A stretch of 64,000 nt of DNA from Caldithrix abyssi DSM 13497 (lineage in GTDB: Bacteria; Calditrichota; Calditrichia; Calditrichales; Calditrichaceae): contig NZ_CP018099.1 in the NCBI RefSeq assembly GCF_001886815.1, positions 744,001 to 808,000 of the forward strand, given 5' to 3'. The notes below the pieces were generated by a model that worked only from the letters and a program-made list of their open reading frames with translations, made no database searches and was not told where the DNA came from. Positions 20,698 through 31,087 of the stretch are shown here, piece after piece. Each line of letters begins with the position of its first letter. Position 1 is the stretch's first letter. The translations under genes and the position numbers were made by a program.

Positions 20698-21327
20698 TTA
20701 TTTTTGAAGCATACTATCAATTTGCGAAAAAGAAAGATCCATTACGGGGTATTTTTGCCAGCCCACCATATCGTAATGCCACCATTCAGATGAGATGGGC
20801 TTAAAGCCATGTTTTTCCATGACCGTTTTTAATATCCAGCGATTTAAACGAATGCTGGCCGGAAGTTTCATGTAATTATGATGAGCGCGTTTTGTGAAAT
20901 CGTCATATTCTGTGGGCATGGGCAGTTCTTTGCCGGTTGAATCGACTAACGTCAGATCGACCGCACAGCCCCGATTATGGCGAGAACCTTTGGCCGGATT
21001 TGCCACATAGCGTGCATCGGGCATAATTTGCCACATTGCCTTTTGAACGCTTAAAGGGCGATATGCGTCAAATATTTTTAAACCAAGGCCAAGGGTTTGC
21101 AATTCTTTTTGCACTTCGTTCAACTTTAAAGCCGCCTCTTTAACCAGGAAGCATCGCGCCTGATCGTACACAGCCCGATGCAAAAAGTTGTTGCTGGTTG
21201 CGTAACGAATGTCCAGAATGATAGAGGGATTCATCTTTTGAATATCCACAAATTCCGGAGTTTTATCAGGTTGTTGTCCGTAAATGAACGAAAGGGACAG
21301 AACCAGAAATAATATTAACTTGCGCAT
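20698..21327 (-). CDS. VanX/DdpX-like D-Ala-D-Ala dipeptidase
   Basis: A 209-residue M15D zinc dipeptidase with a signal peptide (MRKLILFLVLSLSFIYGQ), so it acts outside the cytoplasm. Zinc-site and catalytic signatures are SRHNRGCAVDLTLVD and SSEWWHYDM; DAYRPLSVQ supplies the conserved arginine. The enzyme hydrolyses D-Ala-D-Ala. Export points to wall turnover or nutrient scavenging rather than vancomycin resistance, and no van genes are nearby. I use the ATG at 21327; a TTG 18 bp upstream is possible but would spoil the signal peptide n-region. Confidence 0.9.
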   Translation of the reverse strand: MRKLILFLVLSLSFIYGQQPDKTPEFVDIQKMNPSIILDIRYATSNNFLHRAVYDQARCFLVKEAALKLNEVQKELQTLGLGLKIFDAYRPLSVQKAMWQIMPDARYVANPAKGSRHNRGCAVDLTLVDSTGKELPMPTEYDDFTKRAHHNYMKLPASIRLNRWILKTVMEKHGFKPISSEWWHYDMVGWQKYPVMDLSFSQIDSMLQK

Positions 21328-21434
21328 TAAAAAAATACCCGTCAATTGTTTTTGTTACTTTTTAAAGATAAGCAATTATTAAAAATGAAAAAAGCCAAAT
21401 ATCACAGATAATCAAGAAAATCTCATAAAAAGAT

Positions 21435-21463
21435 TTGTGTCCTTTACAAATAAATTTTATTTT
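21435..21463 (+). promoter_or_regulatory. Candidate promoter for the ilvE leader
   Basis: TTGTGT, a 17-base spacer, then TATTTT. The -10 agrees with the other promoters in the window; the -35 is a weaker match. It would give a leader of about 155 nt that contains the leader peptide and the hairpin. It lies between divergent genes, so a promoter for the plus strand is required somewhere here. Confidence 0.45.
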
Positions 21464-21504: not shown

Positions 21505-21540
21505 ATGCTTAAAAGAAACATTTTGATAATAATTTTTTAG
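21505..21540 (+). CDS. Branched-chain-rich leader peptide upstream of ilvE
   Basis: An 11-codon frame, ATG to TAG, encoding MLKRNILIIIF. Six of eleven residues are Leu or Ile, with Ile-Ile-Ile next to the end. A weak GGAT lies upstream of the ATG as a possible ribosome-binding site. The stop is 10 bases before a strong terminator hairpin and about 90 bases before the aminotransferase gene. This is the classical arrangement of amino-acid attenuation leaders (ilv, leu operons). I did not find a clear antiterminator, so the exact mechanism is open. Confidence 0.7.
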   Translation: MLKRNILIIIF

Positions 21541-21550
21541 CTTTATTGTA

Positions 21551-21594
21551 CCCCCTTGTCTCCTTTTACGGGAGGTAAGGGGTTTTTTATTTTT
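21551..21594 (+). terminator. Attenuator terminator in the ilvE leader
   Basis: The arms CCCCTTGTCTCC and GGAGGTAAGGGG pair with one small internal mismatch around a TTTTACGG loop, followed by T6ATTTTT. No plus-strand gene ends upstream (the neighbour is divergent), so the hairpin must act on the leader of the downstream ilvE transcript. Confidence 0.8.
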
Positions 21595-21627
21595 ACGGAT
21601 CAGCACAATGTAAAAGGAGGATATTGG

Positions 21628-22659
21628 ATGGAAAGAGCAAAACTTGACTGGTCAAATCTGGCATTTCAGTACGTAAAAACGGACTATCATCTGGAATATT
21701 ATTTTAAAGATGGCAAATGGTCTGAGGCCAACATTGTTGAGTCGGACAGGGTTGAGCTGCACATTGCGGCCACGGCTCTGCACTATGGCCAGCAGTGTTT
21801 TGAAGGATTGAAGGCCTTCGAACGAGCAGATGGACGCGTTTCGGTTTTTAGAGTGGATGAAAACGCCAAACGGATGAAAAGATCCGCCGAAAAGATTTTA
21901 ATGGAACCCTTTCCGGAAGATAAATTTATTGAAGCGGTATTCAAAGTAGTGCAGTTAAACCGCCGCTTTGTCCCGCCCTATGGCTCCGGTGCCAGTTTGT
22001 ATGTGCGGCCGTTACTTATCGGAACTTCTGGTGTTATTGGCGTTAAGCCTTCTACTGAGTATATGTTCCTGATTTTTGTAATGCCGGTCGGCCCCTATTT
22101 TAAGGGCGGTTTAAAACCCATTCGCCTGCTGGTTGAAGAGGAGATTGATCGCGCGGCGCCTTTGGGCGTGGGCGATGTAAAAGTGGGCGGAAATTATGCC
22201 GCAGGATTGCGGGCTTCGCATAAGGCAAAGTCTTTGGGTTACAACGAGGTGCTTTATTTAGACGCCAAACATAAAAAATATATCGATGAGTCCGGACCGG
22301 CTAACTTTTTTGGCATTACACAGGACAATAAGTACGTTACGCCGGCTTCTTCTTCCATTTTACCCAGCATCACCAATATGAGCCTGCGCACCCTGGCGGA
22401 AGATGAGCTGGGGATGAAGGTAGAACAAAGACCGATTGATGTAGAGGAGATTTTCGATTTTAAAGAGGCGGGCTGTTGCGGAACGGCAGCGGTTATTACG
22501 CCGGTTAAAAGCATAAAATATCGTGATCGCGAAGTTACCTATTTGCAAGGCGATGAAGTGGGGCCTGTTTGTCGTAAGCTGTACGATACGTTAACGGGTA
22601 TTCAACTGGGTACCGTAGAGGACAAATACGGTTGGAATTTTGAAATCCCCATGGATTAA
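21628..22659 (+). CDS. ilvE: Branched-chain amino acid aminotransferase
   Basis: A 343-residue class IV, fold-type IV PLP enzyme that interconverts Leu/Ile/Val and their 2-oxo acids. The PLP lysine is Lys185 in GDVKVGGNYAAG. Other motifs are LHYGQQCFEGLKAF near the start, YVRPLLIG, DESGPANFFG and GCCGTAAVITPV. The pattern matches the longer BCAT type rather than the E. coli IlvE type. The ATG at 21628 follows a perfect AAAGGAGG at seven bases. An upstream in-frame start would read through the attenuator and is rejected. Regulation by the Ile/Leu-rich leader fits the product. Confidence 0.95.
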   Translation: MERAKLDWSNLAFQYVKTDYHLEYYFKDGKWSEANIVESDRVELHIAATALHYGQQCFEGLKAFERADGRVSVFRVDENAKRMKRSAEKILMEPFPEDKFIEAVFKVVQLNRRFVPPYGSGASLYVRPLLIGTSGVIGVKPSTEYMFLIFVMPVGPYFKGGLKPIRLLVEEEIDRAAPLGVGDVKVGGNYAAGLRASHKAKSLGYNEVLYLDAKHKKYIDESGPANFFGITQDNKYVTPASSSILPSITNMSLRTLAEDELGMKVEQRPIDVEEIFDFKEAGCCGTAAVITPVKSIKYRDREVTYLQGDEVGPVCRKLYDTLTGIQLGTVEDKYGWNFEIPMD

Positions 22660-30870: not shown

Positions 30871-31087
30871 AGCAAGTGTGCCGATTTGCTTAGCTTTAGT
30901 CTCAGAATAATTTGTTTAATCTTCTTCTGCGATGATTGGCGTAGTCTTCGAGAAAATTACCTTGAGAGTGTTGCGGTTGATTTTGGTTGCGGCTCTGCTG
31001 CCTTGAGACAAAATTTAAATTATTTTACGGCGCATGGTCTGAGGTATTACAATTGTTCATTTAAAGTAAACGTCAAAGCTAAAAAAA

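Follow-up and report, generated by a model that had tools for sequence, protein, structure and literature searches.

Upstream of ilvE in the single-contig genome of Caldithrix abyssi (4,978,541 bases), within the window (the whole 64,000-nucleotide stretch of DNA that was analysed), we identified a candidate attenuator in which a short ORF rich in branched-chain amino-acid codons ends at the foot of an intrinsic terminator. A conserved leader-peptide attenuator before ilvE is well supported by comparison with related genomes, and we assign a probability of roughly 0.6 to the complete model, in which the element would sense branched-chain aminoacyl-tRNA through occlusion of the terminator by the ribosome that translates the leader. 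An earlier note on this DNA had proposed a branched-chain leader attenuator serving ilvE alone, and conservation of both codon bias and hairpin in relatives bears that proposal out.

The leader frame MLKRNILIIIF (ATG 21505, TAG 21540; 21505..21540, plus strand) reads directly as previously described, with Leu or Ile at six of its 11 residues, encoded by the regulatory codons CTT, ATT, TTG, ATA, ATA and ATT. An 11-nt spacer (21541..21551, plus strand) separates its stop codon from the first paired base of a 13-bp hairpin, CCCCTTGTCTCC-TTTTA-CGGGAGGTAAGGGG (21552..21582, plus strand), so that the closeness of ORF and hairpin was correctly seen, and the gap of 10 bases given for it was not. A 60-nt stretch containing this hairpin has a folding energy of −19.4 kcal/mol (z −2.5 relative to shuffles), in keeping with the strong terminator claimed; the hairpin is followed by the T tract TTTTTT (21583..21588, plus strand), the ilvE Shine-Dalgarno AAAGGAGGA (21613..21621, plus strand) and ilvE itself (ATG 21628; 21628..22659, plus strand). 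Profile searches confirmed the latter as a branched-chain aminotransferase of the class II ilvE type (NF009897 at E 3e-136; also TIGR01123 ilvE_II), and it is the sole match to its own protein in the genome (E ≤ 0.001). The upstream neighbour, a D-alanyl-D-alanine (D-Ala-D-Ala) dipeptidase (20698..21321, minus strand), is indeed divergent from it. Of the Ile codons in the window's long ORFs, 9.5% are AUA, versus two of four in the leader; these two codons could sharpen sensing, but A+T richness may explain them. Elsewhere in the window, at 30940 on the plus strand, lies a dispersed repeat of ~45 bases (CGTAATCTGCGAGAAAATTACTTTGCGCACGTTGCGGTTGATTTT) that also occurs at L154, L156, L157, L160, L164, L166 and L171 and in many genomic places.

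A putative promoter, TTTG-N20-TATTTT (21434..21463, plus strand), would set the start of transcription at ~21470. Its motif and N20 spacing, found post hoc, are common to all seven attenuator-bearing genomes, in which the element lies 26–46 nt 5′ of the leader ATG; the element is also present in G010, which is attenuator-free. We take it to resemble the Bacteroidota promoter type with TTTG at −33 and TAnnTTTG at −7, and a sigma70 consensus scan gave no match above chance. Because this promoter-like element puts the start 5′ of the leader, the terminator would lie within the ilvE transcript, and a start 3′ of the hairpin, which the earlier note had named as a refuting case, is not favoured, given the conservation of the element. 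Rfam covariance models (T-box, Leu_leader, ilvH, ilvB-OMG and others) gave no hit at or above the gathering score, bar one tRNA, across the window and the ilvE and ilvD loci of the relatives searched.

We compared 13 ilvE orthologues, from C. abyssi and 12 other genomes of the order (63–86% protein identity). The order of promoter, Ile/Leu/Val-rich mini-ORF, covarying terminator and ilvE is kept at seven of these 13 loci and the attenuator is absent from six, three of which share the divergent dipeptidase neighbour found at nine of the 13 overall. L012, L013 and L014 (G006, G009 and G014) carry the divergent ilvE/dipeptidase pair with neither a strong terminator nor a rich leader, and searches of these three genomes found no ilvD, and no ilvB or ilvC above family cut-offs. 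On the ilvE tree, whose forks are poorly supported, the attenuator label needs ~5 changes. Beyond the order, we examined 79 regions upstream of ilvE relatives in other phyla: 12 contained some hairpin, and in none of them did an Ile/Leu/Val-rich ORF lie at it. Within the seven, the hairpin alignment has an invariant CCCTT/AAGGG core and a changeable upper stem, with six of the 12 aligned pairs altered on both sides and 92.8% of cells paired. The leader ORFs occupy equivalent places, yet encode unrelated peptides: MLKRNILIIIF in C. abyssi and, in the six relatives, MIAIINLIISKI, MGKFMIIELNIIIRINRTVF, a 43-aa ORF ending in MMNAVIIIINYIIVLFYPVSKPLIVNFNT, MKHPYINIIRFESIIRLRIISLVNLL, MRFVLLFIIRVFIQ and MIIIHLVHIVNVIIIFIRKNITPYSFG. 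Richness in Ile/Leu/Val codons and the hairpin, whose conservation the earlier note had suggested checking, were kept, and the peptide sequence was not; since the seven peptides differ, what is conserved is codon content and not leader peptide sequence. The Shine-Dalgarno of the leader start codon is poor in most of the seven genomes and weak in C. abyssi.

The C. abyssi leader by itself is suggestive, weak evidence for Ile/Leu/Val richness, and is not compelling because ~10% of dinucleotide shuffles of this AT-rich leader also contain an ORF with six such codons ending near the hairpin (3.6% for Ile alone). Leader regions are 76–79% A+T, and an equally rich leader arises in 0.3–21% of shuffles, depending on the genome. 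Across all seven genomes the combined shuffle p for rich leader ORFs is 3.5e-5, a value to be read with the partial dependence of leaders that share ancestry within a genus. Ile/Leu/Val codons make up 66 of 132 codons in frame versus 41 and 21 in the other two frames, and Ile codons 42 of 132 versus 12 and 8; the ORFs were picked for richness, a choice for which the shuffle test accounts and this frame test does not. Of 143 regions upstream of genes, drawn from 483 kb of the C. abyssi genome, only that of ilvE pairs a strong premature terminator with an ORF composed half of Ile, Leu and Val. Across all 4.98 Mb of the genome, the ilvE leader is the single location of the terminator string CCCCTT-N5..26-AAGGGGTTTT, ruling the string out as a generic genomic element.

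In classical attenuators, the segment between the leader stop and the terminator pairs with the leader or with the left arm of the terminator. The ilvE leaders have codon enrichment and a terminator between ORF and gene in common with that class, but their stop-to-hairpin spacing leaves no space for such a segment 2, and an antiterminator, sought by pairing the left arm with RNA 5′ of it, did not exceed shuffles in six of the seven leaders (G011 reached p 0.04 with a pairing that the others do not share). Because the test for an antiterminator fails, we do not file the ilvE leader as a classical attenuator, and the earlier suggestion of a classical ilv/leu system is not supported. The earlier note's accompanying remark, that a ribosome reaching the stop would touch the hairpin, turned out to describe a general feature: the stop lies 1, 6, 6, 7 and 11 nt upstream of the hairpin in five genomes and inside it in G004 and G007. 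In E. coli, a translating ribosome represses a terminator less than ~27 nt from the stop codon (PMC4824070), and in an efp mutant, expression drops 26-fold when a motif that stalls ribosomes lies 5′ of the pyrL hairpin (PMC5021804). The pil1 system shows antitermination and high expression if the leader stop falls within or next to the hairpin, but not if it is at least 28 nt upstream (PMC3894217). A stop inside the hairpin or less than ~27 nt upstream, as in the pyrBI/pil1 type of occlusion, is found in all seven leaders. When we masked the RNA that a ribosome would cover while the stop codon occupied its A site, the basal pair was lost in five of seven, with C. abyssi (G000) and G011 at the edge of the footprint; a ribosome on the upstream Ile/Leu/Val codons, the first of which lies 41–72 nt from the hairpin, in most cases left the hairpin intact. 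Occlusion is probably a better account than an antiterminator.

Transcription would then start ~35 nt 5′ of the mini-ORF, and the first ribosome would translate the run of Ile/Leu/Val codons towards a stop codon at the foot of, or within, the intrinsic terminator. With charged tRNA plentiful, it would trail RNA polymerase to the stop and prevent closure of the hairpin, allowing read-through into ilvE; with charged tRNA scarce, it would be held on codons ~20–70 nt upstream, the hairpin would fold and transcription would end. The signal sensed would be branched-chain aminoacyl-tRNA, chiefly isoleucyl-tRNA, and ilvE expression would go up with an ample supply of branched-chain amino acids, e.g. 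in peptide fermentation, and be low in shortage. Such an inverted polarity, with read-through in plenty and termination in shortage, seems the likeliest reading at slightly better than even odds, and we favour it because a stop codon at or in the hairpin with no antiterminator is the pyrBI/pil1 geometry. The sequence itself shows the ORF, its codon bias, the hairpin, the promoter-like element, their conservation, the stop-to-hairpin spacing and the lack of a detectable antiterminator; that the leader is translated, that transcription terminates there in vivo, which tRNA is sensed and which polarity applies are inferred.

The biology of the host bears on polarity from both sides. C. abyssi is a peptide fermenter (PMC5317091) in which 2-oxoacid:ferredoxin oxidoreductase-type subunits were found, so that an aminotransferase under induction could act in catabolism. 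It also has one run of ilvD-ilvB-ilvH-ilvC-leuB-leuA-leuC-leuD-cimA-like genes (ilvB, ilvC and ilvD assigned by profile, the remaining names by sequence recognition). A tie between the attenuator and branched-chain amino-acid biosynthesis was rejected: G004 (96% complete) and G007 (76%) keep the ilvE attenuator with no ilvB, ilvC or ilvD over family cut-offs, and G010 and G016 show the reverse, with ilvB and ilvC present and the attenuator absent. A starvation-induced biosynthetic switch does not explain G004 and G007 well. The counterpoint is that C. abyssi combines a sole ilvE with a full ilv-leu operon, where turning the gene off in shortage would impede synthesis if basal read-through were too low. 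A single aminotransferase probably works in both directions, so that the polarity of ilvE could be either. In G011, a second ilvE-like aminotransferase, besides the attenuated ilvE, ends the ilv-leu operon (L143 15549-16490, reversed orientation).

A leader attenuator of classical polarity, in which a ribosome stalled by a lack of branched-chain amino acids would raise read-through, either through an unrecognised antiterminator or through a stall on the last Ile codons (20–29 nt from the hairpin) that blocks the terminator, strikes us as rather unlikely. It has biosynthetic logic where the full ilv-leu pathway exists, the leader of the ilvD operon in C. abyssi has a classical layout, and Ile/Leu/Val codons come within 20–29 nt of the hairpin in all seven leaders, near the 27-nt repression distance (PMC4824070). 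Yet the first such codon is mostly too distant for a stall there to block the hairpin, the gap between stop and hairpin is too short for segment 2, no antiterminator is conserved, and the switch is retained by the two genomes in which ilvB, ilvC and ilvD were not found. Were the mini-ORF instead to report general translation or growth rate, in an ampC-like manner without amino-acid specificity, its Ile/Leu richness would simply reflect AT-rich sequence, as the A+T content and the frequency of equally rich single leaders among shuffles would allow; the combined p, the frame-specific bias, strongest for Ile, and the matching aminotransferase downstream make this improbable.

To read the hairpin as a constitutive partial terminator, or as the end of a separate small transcript, with an ORF of no regulatory role is more doubtful again: the placement of ORF relative to hairpin and the codon bias are both conserved, and the promoter-like element sits just 5′ of the ORF, against which can be set the ilvE orthologues that lack a hairpin and the weak Shine-Dalgarno of the C. 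abyssi leader. Least credible is translational control, in which the left arm CUCCUUUUAC would sequester the ilvE Shine-Dalgarno. The hairpin left arm and loop CTCCTTTTAC (21560..21569, plus strand) are an exact 10-nt complement of the Shine-Dalgarno stretch GTAAAAGGAG (21610-21619), with a duplex of −18.3 kcal/mol (p 0.024), but the match is confined to C. abyssi among its relatives and competes with a terminator hairpin of equal stability that forms first. A secondary effect of this complement on ilvE translation is possible.

The ilvD-ilvB-ilvH-ilvC-leu operon is preceded by a contrasting leader (L139:14159-14491, minus strand, ~3.819 Mb of C. abyssi; also L140 and L142-L149). Its ORF, of ~53 codons in C. 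abyssi and 49–57 across relatives, is about half Ile/Leu/Val and ends NLLLLGIIIISLILILIIG*. Segment 1 (CTCGGGATT) lies inside the Leu/Ile codons, segment 2 (GTCAATCCCGAG) follows the stop, and segment 3 is TCGGGATTGAC; the pairings 1:2 and 2:3 are mutually exclusive, covary, are conserved in ten genomes of both families, and beat shuffles and slid controls on most measures. A further covarying stem stands at the start of the leader, which showed neither a T-tract terminator nor an Rfam match. This leader looks like a classical attenuator missing from Rfam, and the lineage appears to use classical attenuation too. Since the ilvD leader shows the classical layout, the layout at ilvE is not just that of a degraded classical leader missed by a poor search. 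We give even odds to a pairing of opposites in one genome, in which charged Ile/Leu/Val tRNA would induce the aminotransferase while the classical leader de-represses the biosynthetic operon on starvation.

If ribosome occlusion with inverted polarity is true, amino-acid codons in a leader would act as an induction signal, in a device of two parts only, ORF and terminator, with no antiterminator. Such a circuit would be simpler than, and opposite in sign to, the textbook one, and searches based on antiterminators would miss leaders of this kind. The presence of ilvE and ilvD leaders in one genome would permit a direct test of sign. Leader-peptide attenuation would also be extended to Calditrichota, for which we know of no earlier example; the published analysis of the C. 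abyssi genome does not mention attenuation (PMC5317091).

Among known systems, the ilvE leader is like E. coli pyrBI (pyrL), where the terminator is blocked only if the ribosome translating the leader arrives at it and tight coupling gives read-through (PMC4824070, PMC5021804); pyrBI senses UTP via polymerase pausing, whereas what varies at ilvE would be how fast the ribosome moves through Ile/Leu/Val codons. Streptococcus gallolyticus pil1 likewise has a stop in or beside an intrinsic terminator and distance-dependent, ribosome-induced antitermination (PMC3894217), but is switched by phase variation in repeat number and not by an amino acid. With the classical ilv/leu/trp/his attenuators of Enterobacteria and Actinobacteria, and of S. 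aureus ilv-leu (PMC5794164), the ilvE leader shares a short ORF rich in codons of the relevant amino acids, an intrinsic terminator and a matching metabolic gene; it differs in having neither antiterminator nor segment 2, in a stop that abuts or overlaps the terminator, in serving a single aminotransferase gene and, probably, in its opposite polarity. The ilvD operon leader (L139) resembles it in placing a Leu/Ile-rich ORF before branched-chain amino-acid genes, and departs from it in its ~53 codons, three segments, exclusive pairings and lack of a T-tract terminator.
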